In this document: positions 5,117 through 35,196 of the stretch, piece by piece | Numbering within the stretch: position 1 is the stretch's first letter | How the letters are laid out: each line of letters starts with the position of its first letter | Origin: Hydrogenophilales bacterium 28-61-23 | GTDB taxonomy: Bacteria; Pseudomonadota; Gammaproteobacteria; Burkholderiales; Thiobacillaceae | Assembly (NCBI GenBank): GCA_002281555.1 | Contig: NCGJ01000018.1 | Span: forward strand, 1 to 49,255 | Length of the DNA: 49,255 bases | Direction: 5' to 3' | Made by a program: the position numbers and the translations under genes | Notes under the pieces: model-generated | The model's input: only the letters and a program-made list of their open reading frames with translations | What the model was told of the DNA's origin: nothing | The model's database searches: none

Positions 5117-6784
5117 TCAGCGCAGCATGCCGATCAGTTCATCGAACAGGCTGGATGCCACCTGCATCGCCTTGGCGGAAGCCTGATACGCCTGCTGAAA
5201 CCGGATCAGATTCGCCGCCTCCTCGTCCAGATTAACGCCCGAAATCGATTGCTGCGCCACCCTGGCCTGGCTGGTCAGGGTTTCATAGGCCGCAACATTG
5301 ATATCCGCCTCCGAGGCCAGGGTCGCGGTGCGCGATATAAGTTGAGCATAGGCGCTGGAAAAGGTATCCGTGCCATTGATTGCAGTCGACAAGGTCTGCA
5401 GATCGGCCAGCAACAACGCATTCGCGTTATCGCCCGGGCTGCCCGCGCTGCTCGATGACGCGGCGACCCGATTCGGATCGGAAAGCAACGTACTCACCGT
5501 GCCCGACGCGCCATGGCTGGGGCGAATCAGCCAGCGGTCGCCGGCTTGGGCCGTGCCGGCGCCGGCGGTCAGCGTGAAGCCCTGCGACACGCCGTTAATG
5601 GTGGCGACCGCTGCGGCTGGACTGCTGGCGCCATCCGACAAACGGGTCAACGTGTAGCTCGCGCCGTCGTAAGACAACTCGTAGTCGCTGGCCTGAATCT
5701 CGGTGTAGTCGGTGATCGCCGCTGTGAACACCTGGTTGCCGGTGTTGCCGGTCTGCGCGGCCGGCTGCACGAATTGGGACAAGGTCGTGGCGGCGGTGAA
5801 GAAATCAGTGCCGGCGGTGCCCAATTTGTCAAAACCTGAGCCATGCTGGGCGTTGAACTGCGCCGAGAAAACCAGGGCCAGCCGATCCAGTTCCTGCATG
5901 GCCGGTTGCAGCACGGCGTCGCGCACGGCCAACAAACCGCCCAGTTTTCCGCCGGTGACCATCGAAGTAGTGAGCGTCAGCGTATTGCCGCCAGCCTGGT
6001 CGAGCGCCGGCACATCGAATTCCGGCCTGGTCGGGTCGACCACGCTGCTCATCTTGGTCACACCCGAACCCCGCACCAGCGGCTGGCCGTTACCGATGAA
6101 AAGACTGAACGTACCGTCGCCTTGCTGCACCGGCACCACATTGATCAACTTGTTCAGTTCCGACACCAGTTGATCGCGCTGGTCGCGCAGATCGTTGGCC
6201 GGCTGGCCGCCGGCCATGGCTTCGGCGCGAGCAATATTGCCGCCCAATTGCCCGATCTGGCTGGCGTAAGTGTTGATGCGCGCTACCGTCGACGCGACCT
6301 CGCGATTGGTATCGACGCGAATATCGTCCAGCGCGGAGGAAAGCGTATTGAAACGGGAGGCAAGATTGCGCCCGGACGACAGCATCACCTGGCGCGCCGC
6401 ATTCGAGGTCGGATCGGTGGCGACGGTTTGAGTGGCGCTGAAAAACGCATCCAGCGCGCTGGTCAAACCGCTATTGGCATTTCCGGCCAGTGTGTCGATC
6501 TGACTTGCCTGGGCGGCGTAGGCCTCGCTGCGCGAAAGCTGCGCCTGATCGAGCAAGACCTGGCTGTCCTGAAACTGGCTGTACAGGTTGCGCACCGTGC
6601 TGACGCCGACACCGGTACCGAACAGCGCCCCGGCGGCGAACTCGGGCTTCCGCGCCGAATAATCGACTTCCTGGCGCCGAAACCCCGCCGTGTTGATGTT
6701 GGAAATATTGTGTTCGGTAGTGCGTATGCCCGCTTGCGCGGCAGCCAAACCGGTTAGTGCGATTCCTAAAGTACCTGTCGCCAT
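5117..6784 (-). CDS. flgK: FlgK, hook-associated protein 1
   Basis: A 555-residue protein with the axial-protein N-terminal motif (ALTGLAAAQAGIRTTEHNISNINTAGF, given here as two parts: residues about 10-22 and NISNINTAGF). The C-terminal helix GVNLDEEAANLIRFQQAYQ is the standard FlgK ending. FlgK lies between hook and FlgL at the hook-filament junction. The ribosome site AGGAGG precedes the ATG at 6784. The 111-nt gap from flgJ is the largest in the operon and contains a short tandem repeat and a small hairpin (6809-6823), but no convincing promoter, so flgKL are probably read from upstream. Confidence 0.96.
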   Translation of the reverse strand: MATGTLGIALTGLAAAQAGIRTTEHNISNINTAGFRRQEVDYSARKPEFAAGALFGTGVGVSTVRNLYSQFQDSQVLLDQAQLSRSEAYAAQASQIDTLAGNANSGLTSALDAFFSATQTVATDPTSNAARQVMLSSGRNLASRFNTLSSALDDIRVDTNREVASTVARINTYASQIGQLGGNIARAEAMAGGQPANDLRDQRDQLVSELNKLINVVPVQQGDGTFSLFIGNGQPLVRGSGVTKMSSVVDPTRPEFDVPALDQAGGNTLTLTTSMVTGGKLGGLLAVRDAVLQPAMQELDRLALVFSAQFNAQHGSGFDKLGTAGTDFFTAATTLSQFVQPAAQTGNTGNQVFTAAITDYTEIQASDYELSYDGASYTLTRLSDGASSPAAAVATINGVSQGFTLTAGAGTAQAGDRWLIRPSHGASGTVSTLLSDPNRVAASSSSAGSPGDNANALLLADLQTLSTAINGTDTFSSAYAQLISRTATLASEADINVAAYETLTSQARVAQQSISGVNLDEEAANLIRFQQAYQASAKAMQVASSLFDELIGMLR

Positions 6785-24962: not shown

Positions 24963-25226
24963 TCAGAACTGATCGTCGATGCCGTACAGCCGGGCCAGAC
25001 TGGTCAGGCTGTCCGGCATGTTACGGAACTGCAAGGATTTTCCATTGGCGCGTCGACGCAGCGCCAGCAGCAGGCTGAGCGCGGAAGAGTCCATCCGCCC
25101 GACGCCAGTCAGATCGAATATCGTGGAGCCGGCGCCGATGGCGGCTTCGCCTTCCGCCAACAGGCGGGTGGCGTTGTCGAGAACAAGATCGCCAGCCAGC
25201 ATGGCGACGCCCGCTTCTACGCGCAT
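24963..25226 (-). CDS. mlaB: MlaB, STAS-domain subunit
   Basis: An 87-residue protein with a STAS fold: IFDLTGVGRMDSSALSLLLA contains the conserved DSS(A) loop that contacts the ATPase. In the Mla system MlaB is a cytoplasmic subunit that stabilises MlaF in the MlaFEDB complex. Its start overlaps the mlaC stop by one base (TAATG). Length and position agree with MlaB. Confidence 0.88.
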   Translation of the reverse strand: MRVEAGVAMLAGDLVLDNATRLLAEGEAAIGAGSTIFDLTGVGRMDSSALSLLLALRRRANGKSLQFRNMPDSLTSLARLYGIDDQF

Positions 25227-25846
25227 TACTGGTTTTTCCCGCTGGTTGGCTGATTGCGGCGCGACAAAGAGGCCAGCAGTCCTTCGACGCCGCCTTTGCG
25301 CACTTCCGAATTGAATGAGTTGCGATAGACAGTGACCATGCTGACGTTATCGACCAGCACGTCGTAAACCTTCCAGCCGGCATCCTTCTTTTCCATCCGG
25401 TAATCGATGGGAATCGGCGGCGCGCCAGGCTTGCTGACCTCGGTATTGACAGTCACGTCGTTATCGTTGGGCGCCAACTTGAACGGTTTGAATTCGATCC
25501 GGTAATCGGCCACGCTGCTCAGCGACGCTGAATATGTCTTCACCAGCAAAGTGCGAAATTCATGGACCAGACTCTCCTGCTGCTCCGGCGTGGCCTTGCT
25601 CCAGTTTTTGCCGACGGCAAGTTGGGTCATCTGGCGAAAATCGAAATTGGGGAGGATTTTTTCTTCCACCAAAGCCAGGATTTTCTTGTTGTTGCCGCCC
25701 TTGATTTCCTTGTCCTGCTTGACGATGCGCAGCACATCATTCGTGGTGTTCTTGGCCAGGACATCAGGCGGCATGACTTCAGCGACCGCGCCAAGGGCGA
25801 ACACGGCCATCAGGCCAGCCAATAGAATTTGCATCAATCCAGTCAT
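25226..25846 (-). CDS. mlaC: MlaC, periplasmic phospholipid carrier
   Basis: A 206-residue secreted protein with signal peptide about 1-22. Family blocks are KILALVEEKILPNFDFRQMT, AVGKNWSKATPEQQESLVHE and the C-terminal VEGLLASLSRRN region. MlaC shuttles phospholipid between the outer-membrane MlaA complex and the inner-membrane MlaFEDB complex. The 98-nt gap to mlaD, where betaproteobacteria often carry mlaA, holds only a small hairpin (GCCCC/GGGGC, about 25883-25899). Confidence 0.93.
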   Translation of the reverse strand: MTGLMQILLAGLMAVFALGAVAEVMPPDVLAKNTTNDVLRIVKQDKEIKGGNNKKILALVEEKILPNFDFRQMTQLAVGKNWSKATPEQQESLVHEFRTLLVKTYSASLSSVADYRIEFKPFKLAPNDNDVTVNTEVSKPGAPPIPIDYRMEKKDAGWKVYDVLVDNVSMVTVYRNSFNSEVRKGGVEGLLASLSRRNQPTSGKNQ

Positions 25847-25944
25847 TTTTTACCTCGCTTACGAGCGCAATTTGAATATCGATGCCCCAAGAATCGGGGC
25901 TGGGCAATAAAGGGTCAAGCGGATATTGCTACCGAGCCGGCCCG

Positions 25945-26427
25945 CTATTCCGCCGCGTTGCCTTTTTCCGCCGCGCTATCGCTCTTGTTGTAGAGAAACT
26001 GGCCGATCAGATTTTCCAGCACCACCGCGCCCTGGGTAATCTTGAGCGCGTCGCCATTGGCCAGCATTTTCTCGCTCCCGCCCGCATCCAGCGCGATGTA
26101 CTGCTCGCCCAACAAACCGGAAGTCATGATCGAGGCGCTGGTGTCCTTGGGAAAAGGGTAATGCGTGTTGAGCGATAGCGTCACGGTCGCTTCGTAGGTT
26201 TTGGGGTCGAAACCGATTTCCGCAACCCGGCCGACCACCACACCGGCGCTCTTCACCGGCGCGCGCGCCTTGAGCCCGCCGATGTTGTCAAAAGACGCCT
26301 TCACGGCATAAGTCTCACTGCTGTCGTAGCCGCCCAGATTACCCACCTTCAAGGCCAGGAAAAGAATGGCGACGATACCCGCCACGACGAAGATGCCTAC
26401 CCAAAGATCAATTGTTGCGCGCTGCAT
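25945..26427 (-). CDS. mlaD: MlaD, MCE-domain lipid-binding subunit
   Basis: A 160-residue protein with one N-terminal membrane anchor (GIFVVAGIVAILFLALKVG, about 10-28) and one MCE domain (AVKASFDNIGGLKARAPVKS, then AGVVVGRVAEIGFDP). The segment SIMTSGLLGEQYIALDAGG is the MCE core. MlaD forms the hexameric ring that receives lipid from MlaC above MlaE. It starts 3 nt after mlaE ends. Confidence 0.95.
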   Translation of the reverse strand: MQRATIDLWVGIFVVAGIVAILFLALKVGNLGGYDSSETYAVKASFDNIGGLKARAPVKSAGVVVGRVAEIGFDPKTYEATVTLSLNTHYPFPKDTSASIMTSGLLGEQYIALDAGGSEKMLANGDALKITQGAVVLENLIGQFLYNKSDSAAEKGNAAE

Positions 26428-26430
26428 GGA

Positions 26431-27225
26431 TCAAACTCCACGGAACATGAATGCGGTCAGAACAAAATCCAGGCCCAGAATGGCCAGGGACGAAGTCACC
26501 ACGGTACGGGTGGTGGCGCGAGAAACACCTTCCGCCGTGGGCGGGGCGTCGTAGCCCTCGAACAACGCGATGATGGTGACGGCGATGCCGAACACCACGC
26601 TCTTGATGACACCGTTGAGGATGTCTTCCTTGAAATCGACGGCGGCTTGCATCTGCGACCAGAACGAGCCCTCGTCGACACCAATCAGTACCACGCCGAC
26701 CAGATAGCCGCCCAGTACGCCCATCGCCGAAAACAGCGCCGCCAGCAAGGGCATGGAAATCACCGCGCCCCAGAAACGCGGGGCAATCACCCGCGCGATC
26801 GGATCCACCGCCATCATTTCCATCGCGGCGATCTGCTCGGTCGCCTTCATCAGGCCGATTTCGGCCGTGATGGCTGAACCCGCCCGGCTGGCAAACAACA
26901 ATGCGGCCACGACCGGCCCGAGTTCACGCACCAGCGAAAGCGAGACCAGCACGCCCAGCGCTTCTTCGGAACCATAGGTTTGCAAGGTCTCGTAGCCCTG
27001 CAAGCCCAGCACCATGCCGACAAACAGCCCCGACACCAGGATGATGATCAACGAGAGAACACCGGCGGTGAATATCTCCCGCACGATCAAATGGAAACGC
27101 CGGAAACTGGTGCCCGAGTGCAGCAAAACAAGCAGAAAAAAATGCGCCGCCACGCCCATCCGCCAAACCCGGTCCACCGTGCGTCGACCGATACCGCGCA
27201 CACTTTCCAGCAAAGTATCCATCAT
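26431..27225 (-). CDS. mlaE: MlaE, permease subunit of the Mla transporter
   Basis: A 264-residue integral membrane protein of the MlaE family. Diagnostic stretches are LVRELGPVVAALLFASRAGS, AEIGLMKATEQIAAMEMMAV and DPIARVIAPRFWGAVISMPL. It forms the membrane channel of the MlaFEDB complex. The start overlaps mlaF by 4 nt (ATGA), with two adjacent ATG codons at 27225 and 27222. Confidence 0.95.
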   Translation of the reverse strand: MMDTLLESVRGIGRRTVDRVWRMGVAAHFFLLVLLHSGTSFRRFHLIVREIFTAGVLSLIIILVSGLFVGMVLGLQGYETLQTYGSEEALGVLVSLSLVRELGPVVAALLFASRAGSAITAEIGLMKATEQIAAMEMMAVDPIARVIAPRFWGAVISMPLLAALFSAMGVLGGYLVGVVLIGVDEGSFWSQMQAAVDFKEDILNGVIKSVVFGIAVTIIALFEGYDAPPTAEGVSRATTRTVVTSSLAILGLDFVLTAFMFRGV

Positions 27226-28022
27226 GCCGGCAGCCCCAGATCTTCCGCATACGAGGACGCGGGATAGTGAAACGGCACCGGCCCATTCTCTTCGCCATGC
27301 ACGAACTGGTGCACGTAAGGGAGGTGAGAGGCCTTGATCTCGGCCGGCGTGCCTTGCGCCTCGATCACGCCTTCGGAAACGAAATAAACGTAGTCGACCA
27401 TCTTTAGAGATTCCTGGACATCATGAGTGACAACGATCGAGGTCATACCCAAGGTATCGGTAAGGCGTCGAATCAGATTGCCGGTCACCCCAAGCGAAAT
27501 GGGATCAAGGCCGGCGAATGGCTCGTCATAAAGAATCAGCATGGGATCAAGCGCGATCGAACGCGCCAGAGCCACGCGCCGCGCCATGCCGCCGGAAAGT
27601 TCGGAAGGCATCAGGTCATGCGCGCCACGCAAACCCACCGCATTCAATTTCATGAACACCAGATCGCGAATCATCTCTTCAGGCAGGTCGGTATGCTCGC
27701 GTAACTGGAATGCCACATTCTCGAATACCGACATGTCTGTGAATAAGGCGCCAAATTGAAACAACATGCCCATGCGTCGGCGCAATTGATACAAGCCATC
27801 CTGATCCAGCAGCCCCATGTCGATGCCATCGACCAACAGGTTGCCGCTGGACGGTTTCAGCGCGCCGCCCATCAGGCGCAACAACGTCGTCTTGCCACAG
27901 CCGGAATTGCCCATGATGGCAATGACCTGGCCGCGATGCGCGGTCAAATTGATCCCCTTGAGCACCATACGTTGACCATAGGTGAAGGAAAGATCGCGGA
28001 TTTCGATGAAGTTGTCGGACAC
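27222..28022 (-). CDS. mlaF: MlaF, ATPase subunit of the Mla transporter
   Basis: A 266-residue ABC ATPase. Walker A is GNSGCGKTTLL, the signature is LSGGMARRVALAR, Walker B is MLILYDEPFAGLDP, and the switch histidine is in IVVTHDVQ. MlaF drives phospholipid movement through MlaE. It is the first gene of the minus-strand run mlaF-E-D-C-B, ABC ATPase, ABC permease, ibaG, murA, in which nearly all junctions are tight. The 55 nt upstream contain TAGAAT as a possible -10 but no convincing -35. Confidence 0.95.
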   Translation of the reverse strand: MSDNFIEIRDLSFTYGQRMVLKGINLTAHRGQVIAIMGNSGCGKTTLLRLMGGALKPSSGNLLVDGIDMGLLDQDGLYQLRRRMGMLFQFGALFTDMSVFENVAFQLREHTDLPEEMIRDLVFMKLNAVGLRGAHDLMPSELSGGMARRVALARSIALDPMLILYDEPFAGLDPISLGVTGNLIRRLTDTLGMTSIVVTHDVQESLKMVDYVYFVSEGVIEAQGTPAEIKASHLPYVHQFVHGEENGPVPFHYPASSYAEDLGLPA

Positions 28023-28077: not shown

Positions 28078-28536
28078 TCACCGACCCATGACTTCGAGCA
28101 GCGTGGCGACACGTTCCATCTGACCGAGGTCGCCATCGCGGCTGACCAGAAAATGTGGCATTGCGACAGCGTTTTCAGACAACGCGCCCGCCAGTTGTTT
28201 GAGCGAGGAATTACGCGTAAACCAAAGTATCGCGGGGTCATCGGGGCGCATCAGCAGTGCCTTGCCCGCCAACGCTTCGGGTGCTGGCTGAGCGGCCTCA
28301 CCTTCCAGCAGAAATACGAACTGTTCATGGGTATCGGCGTTCCACTGCGCCAGTTGGTCGGAACTGGCCCGCCGCCAATCGGCTTGCGCAAGAAATACGC
28401 AATTGAACTGGGTGTTGAAATAGGTCAACCGCCATTCGTCCGGCATATCCGCCGGGTAAAACGTTCCGCGCCAGGCCGGGTCAGACCATCCCAACGCGCC
28501 GAGGCGCACGCTTCGGCTTATATCGGCATGGGGCAT
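28078..28536 (-). CDS. Short DUF72-like protein
   Basis: A 152-residue protein without signal peptide. Residues 12-50 (LGALGWSDPAWRGTFYPADM and later TYFNTQFNCVFLAQADW) resemble the start of DUF72 proteins, which normally begin (I)G(T)SGW(S)x-P-WRGTFYP and are about 240-300 residues long. The rest does not obviously continue that TIM-barrel family, so this may be a shortened relative or only share the N-terminal motif. It lies upstream of mlaF on the same strand with 55 nt between them. Function unknown. Confidence 0.6.
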   Translation of the reverse strand: MPHADISRSVRLGALGWSDPAWRGTFYPADMPDEWRLTYFNTQFNCVFLAQADWRRASSDQLAQWNADTHEQFVFLLEGEAAQPAPEALAGKALLMRPDDPAILWFTRNSSLKQLAGALSENAVAMPHFLVSRDGDLGQMERVATLLEVMGR

Positions 28537-28606: not shown

Positions 28607-28640
28607 GATTTTGTTTAAATAAGGGTATCTCTATATTCTG
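28607..28640 (+). promoter_or_regulatory. Possible promoter of the repeat protein gene
   Basis: In the AT-rich region before the gene, a TTGTTT and a TATTCT separated by 17 nt could be a sigma-70 promoter. Each hexamer matches only 3-4 of 6 positions. The ribosome site AAGGAG before the ATG at 28701 is strong. Confidence 0.35.
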
Positions 28641-28700
28641 CAAGCCACTAATTCTGTTGTTTGCCAAGCCCCGTACCACCCAAACCCCAAGGAGATTGAA

Positions 28701-29540
28701 ATGAAAATGAAATCACTCGTTGCCGCCCTGTTGCTGTGCGCCTCCCCCGCCGTTTTTGCCGCTGACGCCGCTCCCGCTCCGGCCCCCGCCGCCAAGGCAG
28801 TGCCCCAGACCCCGGAAGCCTGGTTGGCCCGTATGACCGACATGACCCAGAACATGTCCGCCTACAAGGATCCGAAGGTGTTCGTGCCCTGGATGAACGC
28901 CGTGACCGAACCCGGTTTCTACACCACCATGGGCAACAACATGATGGACCCGGGCAACTGGCTGAACATGGCAAATTCCATGACCCAGCCGGGCGCCTAC
29001 ACCAACCTGGCCGCCTTCGCCGATCCCAACGTCTACATGAAGTGGCTGGCAGCCGGGATGGACCCCAACTTCTATACCGCCATGCTGACGCAGATGTCGG
29101 ATCCGGGCAAATTGATGCGCTGGGCGATGTCCCCGATGGACCCGAAAGTCATGTCCATGCTGATGAACATGGTTAACCCCAACCTGTACATGAAGTGGCT
29201 GATGTCCCCCATGGATCCCCGTGCTCAGCAGTTGATGATGGCCCCGCTTAACCCCAATCTGTACATGGGCTGGATGGGCGCTTCCATGAATCCAGGTTCT
29301 TACGGCGACATGTGGAAAGGCTTCATGAACCCAGCCACCGGCGCCATGCCGGCCATGCCGACCTCCACCCCCTGGGCCTTTCCCGCCGCTCCCGCCGCCG
29401 GCACCGCCCCCAGCTTCAACTTCTTCGACCCGAACGCCTGGAGCCAGATGATGCCTGCCGCCCCTCAAGGCGGTTATGCCTTCCCGTTCCCGCTGCCCGC
29501 CGCTCCAGTTGCAGCTCCCGCTGCTCCCGCCGCCAAGTAA
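28701..29540 (+). CDS. Secreted protein made of 13-residue Met/Pro/Tyr/Trp repeats
   Basis: A 279-residue protein of no family I recognise. Residues 1-20 are a clear signal peptide (cleavage after VFA), followed by an Ala/Pro linker. From about residue 54 to 210 the chain is about twelve tandem repeats of 12-13 residues with consensus P-(N/G)-x-Y-x-x-W/M-x-x-x-M-(D/N). Examples are PNVYMKWLAAGMD, PNFYTAMLTQMSD, PNLYMKWLMSPMD and PGSYGDMWKGFMN. The tail is Pro/Ala-rich with aromatic patches. There are no cysteines after the signal peptide. The gene is monocistronic: strong ribosome site, own terminator, DUF72-like gene divergent on one side and cysS convergent on the other. Possible roles are a surface or matrix structural protein, an envelope for periplasmic inclusions such as sulfur globules, or a metal-binding Met-rich protein; none can be proved here. 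Confidence 0.85.
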   Translation: MKMKSLVAALLLCASPAVFAADAAPAPAPAAKAVPQTPEAWLARMTDMTQNMSAYKDPKVFVPWMNAVTEPGFYTTMGNNMMDPGNWLNMANSMTQPGAYTNLAAFADPNVYMKWLAAGMDPNFYTAMLTQMSDPGKLMRWAMSPMDPKVMSMLMNMVNPNLYMKWLMSPMDPRAQQLMMAPLNPNLYMGWMGASMNPGSYGDMWKGFMNPATGAMPAMPTSTPWAFPAAPAAGTAPSFNFFDPNAWSQMMPAAPQGGYAFPFPLPAAPVAAPAAPAAK

Positions 29541-29554
29541 TCTGGTTCGTGGCA

Positions 29555-29587
29555 ATAAAAAACGGCTGCCGCGGCAGCCGTTTTTTT
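29555..29587. terminator. Strong bidirectional rho-independent terminator
   Basis: A perfect 20-nt palindrome ACGGCTGCCGCGGCAGCCGT (29562-29581) flanked by A6 on the left and T7 on the right. It can end both the repeat-protein gene (stop 29540) and cysS coming from the right (stop 29610). Confidence 0.92.
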
Positions 29588-29609: not shown

Positions 29610-31007
29610 TCATTCACGTCGCCACAGCGTTCCCTGCGCGCCATCTTCGAGCAGGATGCCAGCCGCCTTGAGTTCATCGCGAATCGCATCCGAACGTTTG
29701 AAGTCTTTGGCCTTGCGCGCAGCCAAGCGCTCATTGATCAGCGCGTCGATACGCTCGGCGGCATAGTCATTGCCCGCATCATCGACAACCCCGGCCTGCA
29801 TGAATTGCTCCGGGTCGCGTTGCAAAAAACCCAAAACATCCGCCAGCGACTTGAGCAAACCCAGCAGTTGCGACGCTTCCACAGGCGCTGCCGCACGCAT
29901 CCGATTTGCCTCCGCCGCCAGATCGAACAACACCGCCAAAGCTTCCGGCGTATTGAAGTCGTCATCCATCGCGGACTGGAAACGCGCCGCGTAAGGGTTG
30001 CTCCAATCAAGCTTGGATTCAGTCGCTTCGATACCGCGCAATGCGGTGTAAAGCCGCGTCAATGCCGCTCTCGCGTCATCCAGATGCTGATCGGAATAAT
30101 TCAGCGGGCTGCGGTAATGCGCGCGCAAAATGAAGAAGCGCACCACTTCCGCATCGTATTTCCGCAGCACTTCGCGGATCGTGAAAAAGTTGCCCAGGCT
30201 CTTGGACATCTTTTCATCATCCACGCGGACAAATCCGTTGTGCAGCCAGTAATTGACGAATTTGCAGTCATGCGCGCCTTCGGATTGGGCGATTTCGTTC
30301 TCATGGTGCGGAAACTGCAAGTCCTGGCCACCGCCGTGAATATCGAAATGTTTGCCGAGCAGATCGGAGCCCATCGCGGAACATTCGATATGCCAGCCTG
30401 GACGGCCCGCGCCCCAGGGCGAAGGCCAGGACGGTTCGCCCGGCTTGGCCGCTTTCCAGAGCACGAAATCCATCGGGTCGCGTTTGTTCGGGTCGACTTC
30501 CACCCGTTCGCCGGCACGCAAGTCTTCCAGCGACTTGCCGGAGAGCTGGCCGTAATTGGCAAAGCTTTGCACCGAGTAGTAAACATCCCCATTCGAAGCG
30601 GCATAGGCGTGGCCGCGTTCAATCAAGCTCTGGATCATGGTCAGCATGTTGCCGACATACTCGGTAGCACGCGGTTCATGATCCGGCGGCAGCACACCAA
30701 GGGCGGCGCCGTCTTCATGCATCGCCGCGATGAAACGGTCGGTCAATGCCGTGTAGGGTTCACCGTTGTCTTGCGCCCGCTTGATGATCTTGTCATCGAT
30801 ATCGGTGATGTTGCGCACGTAGGTGACCTGGTAACCAGAGCCGCGCAGCCAGCGCGTCATCATGTCGAACACCACCAGCACGCGGGCATGGCCGAGATGG
30901 CAATAGTCGTAAACCGTCATGCCGCAGACATACATGCGCACCTGGCCGGGGACGATTGGACTGAAAATCTCTTTCTTGCGCGTCAGCGAGTTATGCAGTA
31001 CGAGCAT
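29610..31007 (-). CDS. cysS: Cysteinyl-tRNA synthetase
   Basis: A 465-residue class I synthetase. The HIGH motif is HLGH within [16 protein letters not shown], and the KMSKS motif is [10 protein letters not shown]. Zinc-binding residues occur in the usual places (Cys28 region, and GWHIECSAM with [19 protein letters not shown]). It charges tRNA-Cys in the cytoplasm. It follows glnS by 5 nt and is presumably cotranscribed. Length is normal. Confidence 0.98.
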
Positions 31008-32884: not shown

Positions 32885-33907
32885 ATGACACTCTCCCGTT
32901 TCTCCCTCGCCTTCCTTGCCGCCCTGCTGCCAGCGCTCGCGCTTGCCGCCGTACCCAGTGTGCAAGACGCCAATCAGGCCTTTCGCCAGGGCAACAACCA
33001 GGCCGCGCTAGAAAAAGTGAACGGCTTTCTCGCCAGCAACCCCAAGGACGCGCAAGGACGCTTTCTCAAGGGATTGATCCTGACCGAGTTGAATCGCTTT
33101 CCCGATGCAATCAAGGTGTTCTCGGGCCTGACCGAAGACTTCCCGGAACTGCCGGAGCCTTACAACAATCTGGCCGTTCTTTACGCCGCCCAGGCCGACT
33201 ACGAGCGCGCCAAAAACAGCCTGGAAATGGCCATCCGCACGCATCCCAGCTATGCCACCGCGCACGAAAACCTCGGCGACATCTACGCCAAGATGGCCTC
33301 TCAGGCCTACGACAAAGCGCTGCAACTGGATAAATCCAACACCTCGGCGCAGACCAAACTGGCACTGATTCGCGACCTGTTCAGCCCTACGCCACGTCCG
33401 CAAGACACGACCAAGCTGGCCGACGCCGGCAAAGGCAAGGCCAAGCCCGCCGCAAAACAGGCGGCGGCAACGCAGGCAACCCCACCGCAGGAAACGAAGC
33501 CGGCAACACCCGCCGCCAGCGAAGCCGTAAAACCAGGCAAAGAAGCCGCCAAACCGGCGGCGACGGAAGCCATTGAACCGAAGGCGCAAATCGAACGCAC
33601 CCTGCGCGCATGGATCGACGCTTGGAGCGCGCGCGATGCCGAAACTTATCTGGGTTTCTACAGCACCCAATTCAAAGTCCCCGCCAACAGCGATTTCGCC
33701 ACCTGGTCGCAAGAGCGCAAAGCACGCGTCACCCGGCCCGACTTCATCAAGGTCGCGATCGATCGATTAAAGATCAAACTCAAAAATGACTCCGCCAAGG
33801 TCAACTTTATCCAACACTACGAGTCCAACATTGTCAAAGACACATCCAGGAAAACCATGGCTTTGGTGCGTGAAGGTTCAATCTGGAAGATCGTGGAAGA
33901 ACGATGA
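32885..33907 (+). CDS. Periplasmic TPR protein with NTF2-like C-terminal domain
   Basis: A 340-residue secreted protein. Signal peptide about 1-21. TPR repeats span about residues 25-165 (QAFRQGNNQAALEKVNGFLA, EPYNNLAVLYAAQADYERA, AHENLGDIYAKMASQAYDKA). A low-complexity Ala/Lys/Pro linker covers about 175-235. The last 105 residues form an NTF2/SnoaL-like domain (LRAWIDAWSARDAETYLGFY, FIQHYESN, MALVREGSIWKIVEE). The same type of C-terminal domain ends the next gene, an L,D-transpeptidase, and the genes overlap by 4 nt (ATGA). This suggests the two act together on the peptidoglycan, perhaps as partners through the shared domain. A longer in-frame start is not supported by the signal peptide. 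Confidence 0.85.
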   Translation: MTLSRFSLAFLAALLPALALAAVPSVQDANQAFRQGNNQAALEKVNGFLASNPKDAQGRFLKGLILTELNRFPDAIKVFSGLTEDFPELPEPYNNLAVLYAAQADYERAKNSLEMAIRTHPSYATAHENLGDIYAKMASQAYDKALQLDKSNTSAQTKLALIRDLFSPTPRPQDTTKLADAGKGKAKPAAKQAAATQATPPQETKPATPAASEAVKPGKEAAKPAATEAIEPKAQIERTLRAWIDAWSARDAETYLGFYSTQFKVPANSDFATWSQERKARVTRPDFIKVAIDRLKIKLKNDSAKVNFIQHYESNIVKDTSRKTMALVREGSIWKIVEER

Positions 33908-35196
33908 AGCGTCTGTTTAATCCGCTTTTCCACGCGGTTCTTAATCTGGCCCTGATGACCGGTGGTTTCAGTGTGGTCTCAGGCAGTCAGTCGTTTGCGA
34001 GTGAACTAGCGGCCACGCCACCCATCCTGCTTGCATCCGCCGATCCAAGCCGCTTTCTGGCCACGCCCGTTTTGACCTCACCCGACTCGCTGATATCCAA
34101 AGCGTTGCAGGACATCCGCGCGACCCGAATGGACGATGCGCTCAAGCAAGTCAATCGCGCCATCGCACTACGCCCCGACTTCAAGCTTGCACACCTGATC
34201 CGTGGCGATCTGCTCATGGCGCGAGCCAGACCCCTTGCCGGACTCGGCCCCGTCGCCAAGGCCCCCAACCCGTCGCTTGACGACCTGCGTGACGAAGCGC
34301 GAGTCCGTCTCATGCGTTACATCGACCAACCCGATCCGGATTTCTTGCCGCGTCAGATTTTGCAACTCGCGCCCAGCCAGAAATATGCGCTGCTCGCCGA
34401 TACCTCGCGCGCCCGCCTCTACCTGTTCGAGAACGTCGATGGCGTGCCACGCCTAAAATCCGATTTCTACATGACGATCGGAAAAAACGGCACGGACAAG
34501 CGCAAGGAAGGCGACAAACGCACCCCGATGGGGGTGTATCGAATCGCCGAACAACTGCCGCGCGCCGGCTTGGCCGATCTTTACGGAGATGGAGCGTTCC
34601 CACTTAATTACCCTAACGAGTGGGATCAATCGCAAAACCGCGGCGGCCACGGCATCTGGCTGCATGGCGTGCCATCCAACACCTACAGCCGCCCGCCACG
34701 TTCCAGCGATGGCTGTGTCGTCGTCGCCAATCCCGATTTGAAAGAACTCACGCGTTGGATAAAAGTCGGCTCCACCCCGGTCATCATCACCGATCGAACC
34801 GATTGGGTAGCGCGCGACACATGGGAACAGAGCCGAAACGAACTGCTCACACGACTACAGACCTGGAAAGACGATTGGGAAGCGCGCGATCCCGACCATT
34901 TCCTACGTCATTACAGCACCGCGATGACCAGCGGAGCCGGTGCCACATGGGCCAGAGACAAGCGCCGAAATATTCAGGAAAAAAACTGGATTCGGGTAAA
35001 CCTGACTGATGTCAGCCTGTTCCTCTATCCAGGCGGCGATATGGCCTATACCGAATTCACCCAACGCTACAGCAGCGACAAACTGTCCGGCCTGTCCAGC
35101 AAACGTCTGTATTGGCGGCAGGAAAACGGCGGCTGGCGCATCGCTCTGGAAAAAGCTCAAGACATCCCCATTTCCACCAACCTCGCACAACGTTGA
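33904..35196 (+). CDS. L,D-transpeptidase (YkuD) with NTF2-like tail
   Basis: A 430-residue secreted protein. The N-terminal signal is about 1-30, then a helical region with TPR-like character (residues about 60-100). The YkuD domain (about 155-295) has the catalytic motif [18 protein letters not shown] with the nucleophile Cys in SDGCVVV. The final 120 residues are an NTF2-like domain ([36 protein letters not shown]) similar to that of the upstream TPR protein. L,D-transpeptidases make 3-3 cross-links or attach proteins to peptidoglycan. Others with this tail (Cds6-type annotation) are known; the particular reaction is not evident. Overlaps the TPR gene by 4 nt and precedes a cyclophilin by 8 nt. 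Confidence 0.9.

Follow-up and report, generated by a model that had tools for sequence, protein, structure and literature searches.

The window analysed here, a stretch of 49,255 nucleotides from Hydrogenophilales bacterium 28-61-23, holds a gene for a highly repetitive protein, and the question it raises is what such a protein is for. The earlier note on this DNA saw no known family in it. Our searches agree: the window protein matched no Pfam and no NCBIfam family at E-values up to 10 and no PDB sequence at E-values up to 1, and no paper on the repeat family was found in the open-licence PMC literature. The features that concern us are as follows.

28701..29540, + strand: gene for the repeat protein, with an ATG start and 279 aa; homologous open frames occur in 52 of 117 genomes of the bacterial family
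28701..28760, + strand: putative Sec signal peptide, residues 1-20, MKMKSLVAALLLCASPAVFA, read by eye from its basic start, hydrophobic core and closing AFA
28689..28695, + strand: ribosome-binding site AAGGAGA, read from the sequence, with 5 nt between its end and the ATG
28617..28639, + strand: promoter-like block AAATAAGGGTATCTCTATATTCT, the best conserved part of the 130-nt upstream region
28872..29330, + strand: twelve 12/13-residue helix units, residues 58-210, forming three 51-residue super-repeats (from periodicity, predicted helices and conservation)
29331..29537, + strand: Ala/Pro-rich C-terminal tail, residues 211-279, mostly of low model confidence, with one helix at 244-250
29557..29587, no strand assigned: hairpin with A-tract and T-tract, a likely terminator, possibly common to the convergent cysS
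25226..28022, - strand: MlaF-MlaE-MlaD-MlaC lipid-transport genes, divergent from the repeat gene (Pfam ABC_tran, MlaE, MlaD, MlaC)
28078-28536, - strand: small ORF between the Mla genes and the repeat gene
29610..31007, - strand: cysS, the convergent neighbour (Pfam tRNA-synt_1e, E 3.1e-139)

The ribosome site and terminator that had been claimed for this gene were recovered, and its N-terminus looks like an export signal. In the upstream alignment (19 sequences, the window and 18 relatives), AGGAG is kept 5' of the start codons. The 55-nt fold of the terminator hairpin has an energy of −24.8 kcal/mol (z −5.1), and a similar hairpin lies 3' of the stop codon in relatives among the 15 loci listed. 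A consensus sigma-70 scan returned no promoters and did not pick up the block at 28617..28639; a consensus scan for terminators likewise returned none, despite the hairpin. The conserved block upstream and the hairpin downstream together indicate that the repeat gene is probably a separate transcription unit.

We then examined the array. The unit lengths over residues 58-210 are 13, 13, 13, 12, 13, 13, 13, 12, 13, 12, 13 and 13. Every unit has P first and D, E, N or Q last, and the consensus is P at position 1, N/G/K/R at 2, mostly Y at 4, W/M/L at 7 and M/L at 12. The mean BLOSUM62 score at lag 13 was 0.68. For comparison, we shuffled residues 57-212 5000 times and took the higher score of lags 12 and 13 each time; the mean was −0.75 and no shuffle scored above 0.03, so that none reached the observed value. 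Thus, the twelve tandem units proposed earlier are real, with a period that alternates between 13 and 12. The strongest lag among 2-59 was 51, that is, four units (score 1.40, identity 31%), and the array therefore reads most naturally as three four-unit super-repeats.

The mature protein has no Cys, no His, 13% Met and 25 charged residues in 259. Its GRAVY is −0.13 (−0.20 for the repeat region), so the protein is not extremely hydrophobic. The periodic side chains had been taken to suit an amphipathic layer at a hydrophobic surface, and this GRAVY, with modest helical moments of 0.11-0.48 per unit, speaks for that idea only faintly.

To describe conservation, we aligned the window protein with 73 of 83 distinct candidate proteins (74 rows). 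Prolines are the best conserved letters, with 14 of the 19 core prolines kept in at least 90% of the relatives. Only one of the 30 core Met positions of the window protein is Met at that level; Met averages 51% of the letters at these positions, and its commonest replacement is Leu (18% of letters). Hydrophobic letters fill 98, 92, 86 and 85% of the cells at unit positions 4, 7, 8 and 12, respectively, so these side chains may line an apolar groove or face. The 12/13 spacing is also preserved in both distant proteins, those of genomes G219 and G661.

These numbers bear on the idea, raised in the earlier note, that the protein is a Met-rich binder of metal (copper or silver). An exported protein with this Met content fits such a role in principle. 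However, Met is replaced at most positions whereas the prolines are kept, the mature protein lacks Cys and His, and no metal gene was recognised among the scanned neighbours, which are a subset. Metal binding is thus disfavoured, and we give it hardly any credence. The protein could also serve as a sink for oxidants or sulfane sulfur, its Met side chains being sacrificed in the periplasm. High Met content, export and the sulfur gene clusters of relatives described below would accord with this. However, relatives have Leu in place of many of the Met residues, which points to a hydrophobic role more than to a redox one, and no Met sulfoxide reductase was recognised nearby in an incidental look. 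We consider a Met sink very unlikely.

The structure was predicted with AlphaFold from the 74-row alignment. A prediction that lacked a regular repeat fold would have spoken against the earlier note; the model is instead a regular succession of short helices that break at prolines, with about one helix of ~10 residues per unit, some of them broken (residues 58-68, 71-82, 84-94, 97-107, 109-119, 122-132, 135-142, 148-157, 160-167, 173-183, 185-196, 198-201 and 203-209). Means of pLDDT over blocks of 10 residues were 90-97 for residues 41-200 and 41-73 after residue 210 (overall 79.6, pTM 0.62). The model of the operon copy L115, built from 31 rows, has the same helix pattern at lower confidence (mean pLDDT 77.4, pTM 0.58). 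Fold searches of the PDB with both models gave nothing convincing.

Among the 74 members, 13 families were matched by any member at E-values up to 1. TetR_C_27 (5 members, best E 0.00026) and GerD (5 members, best E 0.049) were judged to be incidental weak matches. The G661 relative lies above the GerD (PF17898) cut-off (31.9 versus 29.5 bits, E 1.4e-7), which we read as a likely effect of helical, Met-rich composition.

One of the closest likenesses is to the STI1/DP domains of Sti1/HOP, Sgt2 and ubiquilin, which the excerpts of PMC8010706 describe as amphipathic helices with conserved helix-breaking prolines and a hydrophobic, Met-rich groove. The window protein shares the short helices broken by D/N-P, both in its model and in its conservation, as well as the Met-richness and, presumably, the logic of a hydrophobic groove. 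It could accordingly be a periplasmic chaperone of this type that holds hydrophobic protein segments. The G661 relative has sub-threshold matches to STI1-HOP_DP (E 0.0025) and UBQLN1 (E 0.0015). However, both score too low for the curated cut-offs (18.1 against 29.1 bits and 18.6 against 27 bits), and none of the 74 members matches an STI1-type family at E-values up to 1. Moreover, unlike STI1/DP domains, the window protein has twelve regular units rather than about five helices, is presumably exported and has no significant profile match. No client is known, and chaperoning alone does not explain the sulfur clusters. We therefore regard a chaperone as improbable, though by a smaller degree than the two Met-based roles. 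By analogy, a proline-capped helical array rich in Met and aromatic residues would fit the binding of a very hydrophobic ligand, much as STI1 domains bind protein clients according to the same excerpts of PMC8010706.

Where the family works in the cell can be approached through its paralogs. Seven places in the own genome match the repeat family, and the window copy is one of them. Paralog L002 ends in an OmpA family C-terminal domain (PF00691; Pfam, E 3.7e-17; L002 is the one member scanned within its subgroup), and, judged by eye, the long members of its group share a terminal RRVEIE motif. The window protein lacks this domain, as the Pfam search without any family shows. The OmpA domain on L002 puts the family, as far as sequence can tell, in the cell envelope. 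Contig C11 of the own genome (L005) carries two adjacent repeat paralogs, at 1441-2094 and 2205-2921. In the second protein of this pair the array is incomplete, and the C-terminus differs and closes with NPWLSNSVNYRY; in their subgroup the second protein recurs in 10 of 10 loci and the first in 9 of 10. The own-genome assembly (G000) is 98% complete, and ribosomal protein S12 was unmatched in it, probably because of a gap.

The neighbours of the window gene are Mla and tRNA-synthetase genes, and no sulfur gene adjoins it. In 21 of 21 loci chosen from its orthologs and near-orthologs, an MlaF match and the small ORF recur in the same orientation, and cysS recurs in 12, some of the stretches being short. 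In a neighbouring subgroup, the repeat gene has MlaF-like and cysS genes close by at 9 of 9 loci. Elsewhere in the window, at 32885-35196 on the + strand, there are a TPR protein and a YkuD L,D-transpeptidase, each with a C-terminal Cds6_C domain. The 20 scanned neighbours of the other own-genome paralogs included no recognised sulfur gene; among the neighbours of these paralogs are genes for O-antigen ligase, H+-pyrophosphatase, OprB porin, branched-chain amino acid ABC proteins and PEP-CTERM proteins.

This could be explained if the repeat protein is a general component of the envelope or outer membrane, either a structural layer or a lipid-handling partner of Mla, in which case the sulfur clusters of relatives would reflect the lifestyle of the hosts. 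The constant position divergent from the Mla operon, the OmpA domain on one paralog and the lack of sulfur neighbours for most copies are all in line with it. However, relatives may simply have inherited the synteny with Mla, and this explanation does not account for the recurrence of the gene beside DUF302 and sulfur genes across three bacterial families. We consider this explanation unlikely, while noting that it deserves more weight than a chaperone.

The repeat family is very rare outside its bacterial family (f1, presumably the Thiobacillaceae) in the genomes searched. In a set of 61 relatives, the 29 genomes that carry it all belong to f1, and none of 24 same-order genomes of other families carries it. 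Profile searches found it in 52 of the 117 f1 genomes (27 of 59 of good quality). Across the order it turned up in 7 of 399 genomes, of which G219 alone is not in f1; across the phylum it turned up in 3 of 398, these being the own genome, G661 and, doubtfully, G706. The G706 match (E 1.3e-6) was set aside; it is antisense to a metallo-hydrolase-like frame, and G706 has no SoxB match. Within f1, the family occurs in all 23 genomes of the own genus, 9 of 56 of g6, 4 of 9 of g5, 4 of 7 of g2, 5 of 5 of g7 and 4 of 4 of g11. It occurs in the single genomes of g4, g8 and g9 and is absent from g3 (0 of 6), g12 (0 of 3) and g10 (0 of 1). The taxon labels in the best 80 of 109 loci include Thiobacillus, Hydrogenophilales, Gallionellaceae, Tepidiphilus and Parasulfuritortus. 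In an isolate genome of Parasulfuritortus cantonensis (L095), the repeat gene appears as two frames (6001-6525 and 6303-6782), through a frameshift that is either genuine or an artefact of assembly.

The distribution of the family does not follow sulfur oxidation: SoxB is above its cut-off in 100 and DsrA in 94 of the 117 f1 genomes. The principal new evidence lies in gene order. The arrangement DUF302, repeat gene, cytochrome c and FccB on one strand, the last two being a pair of cytochrome c and flavocytochrome c sulfide dehydrogenase genes, was found at eight loci in six related genomes (G030 C53 and C21, G017 C2, G021 C164 and C77, G013 C174, G002 C157 and G020 C76). These loci were located with DUF302 as bait in f1 together with a local gene map, and they are therefore not a random sample. 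Gene identities were checked with Pfam on two of the eight, L115 and L138 (Rhodanese, DUF302, Cytochrom_C, FCSD, SoxY, SoxZ, NapB). The fetched stretch includes SoxY and SoxZ in four of the eight loci and SoxZ alone in a fifth, while three of the eight stretches are truncated on that side by the end of the contig or of the stretch; a rhodanese gene is present in six. A ninth locus, L183 (G036 C33), has the order FccB, repeat gene, SoxY, SoxZ and DUF302.

Distant genomes add two further arrangements. In G219 the order is a PF04143 sulfur transporter (Sulf_transp), the repeat gene and DUF302. In G661 an ArsR regulator, PF04143, a DsrE2-like gene, genes for two FadL-type proteins of the outer membrane and one for a CxxCH protein come first, in this order, followed by the repeat gene and DUF302. 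This G661 cluster (L160:1195-10246) looks like an uncharacterised locus for sulfur uptake or export. SoxB is above the curated cut-off in both genomes. The second G661 relative, L154, has no neighbour recognised as a sulfur gene, its neighbours standing without a Pfam scan. Thus, across three bacterial families, four different arrangements combine the repeat gene with DUF302 and sulfur genes.

DUF302 itself has 1-6 close copies per genome in 100 of the 117 f1 genomes. At an identity of at least 80%, the repeat gene adjoins 8 of 10 DUF302 matches, the close clusters without it being G018 C67 and G014 C38. In the excerpts of PMC5037610 and PMC5248467, a DUF302 gene between soxA and soxB in Acidithiobacillia and Thiohalorhabdus is described as of unknown function. 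The DUF302 genes of the own genome (C29 and C4; L177 and L178) have no repeat gene within the 18-kb stretches. At L177 (C29:370391-372609), two DUF302 genes adjoin a rhodanese gene. Among loci fetched regardless of sulfur genes (the best 80 of 109 relatives), only two have a sulfur-gene neighbour, L115 with the full cluster and L111 with DUF302 only.

We built a FastTree phylogeny from 117 of 189 frames, leaving out those shorter than 150 residues, with X or duplicated; placement of the long branches L154, L156, L113 and L006 is unsure. The window copy falls in a clade of 20 rows, near a group of 10 and a group of 13 that includes the OmpA fusion L002. Seven of the nine sulfur-cluster copies form one clade (support 96), and L173 and L183 branch close by. 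The own-genome paralog L003 belongs to the sister group, so the sulfur-cluster copies are clade-mates of L003 and not of the window copy.

FCSD, the flavocytochrome c sulfide dehydrogenase, yields zero-valent sulfur in the periplasm. Because some family members lie inside gene clusters for sulfide and thiosulfate oxidation, the protein may handle elemental sulfur outside the cytoplasm. The four arrangements in three families, the product of FCSD and an array suited to a very hydrophobic ligand lead us to favour sulfur handling. Our preferred reading, to which we assign a probability of roughly 45%, is that the protein sits in the envelope and binds zero-valent sulfur, coats it or ferries it. 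Counting against this reading are the scarcity of sulfur neighbours among the 80 loci fetched regardless of sulfur genes, the DUF302 clusters that lack a repeat gene, the mismatch with the distribution of SoxB and DsrA, the GRAVY and the position of the cluster copies in the tree. The idea of a sulfur-globule coat in the earlier note thus gains indirectly from the neighbours of paralogs and distant relatives and gains nothing from those of the window gene. The repeat and its conservation, the predicted helices, the OmpA fusion and the gene clusters are results of the analysis, whereas we infer export, the apolar surface, sulfur binding and a role that the window copy would share with the operon copies.

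Under the sulfur-handling reading, the exported protein would fold into a rod or solenoid of about twelve helices of ~10 residues, each with a D/N-P turn as its cap. Unit positions 4, 7, 8 and 12 (Tyr, Trp/Met, Met/Leu/Ala and Met/Leu) would form an apolar surface or groove. This surface would bind zero-valent sulfur as S8, polysulfur chains or the skin of sulfur globules, namely the sulfur released in the periplasm by sulfide dehydrogenase and the Sox enzymes. The protein would keep this sulfur dispersed, coated or carried to the next step. The paralogs may divide the job: the copy with the OmpA domain would be tied to peptidoglycan, another co-made with sulfide dehydrogenase, and the window copy made from its own transcription unit.

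Sulfur globule proteins are known from purple sulfur bacteria and similar organisms. Compared by description with SgpA-D of Allochromatium vinosum in the excerpts of PMC10386293, the window protein likewise has a putative export signal and is repetitive, with regularly spaced prolines and several genes per genome. SgpD is also reported there as a transcription unit of its own with promoter and terminator, as the window gene appears to be. However, the window protein has a proline every 12-13 residues and confidently predicted short helices, whereas the same excerpts give SgpD a P-X2-P type pattern and long helices with low-confidence loops. The Sgp proteins are also called "extremely hydrophobic", unlike the window protein with the GRAVY values given above.

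To our knowledge, how bacteria hold and pass on water-insoluble elemental sulfur in the periplasm is poorly understood. A bolder and rather doubtful proposal is that the family is a new class of exported solenoids, in which proline-capped helices of 12/13 residues with a surface lined by Met, Trp and Tyr would act as a receptor dedicated to zero-valent sulfur. Each cell would have about seven specialised copies, some free, some anchored to peptidoglycan and some co-made with sulfide dehydrogenase; in distant sulfur oxidisers, relatives would work alongside FadL-type pores and PF04143 transporters, and DUF302 would be a partner. If the repeat protein does handle sulfur, this family of Thiobacillus-type bacteria would offer a concrete handle on the problem, through a fold that is defined, a short repeat unit that lends itself to production and testing, and DUF302 as a neighbour.
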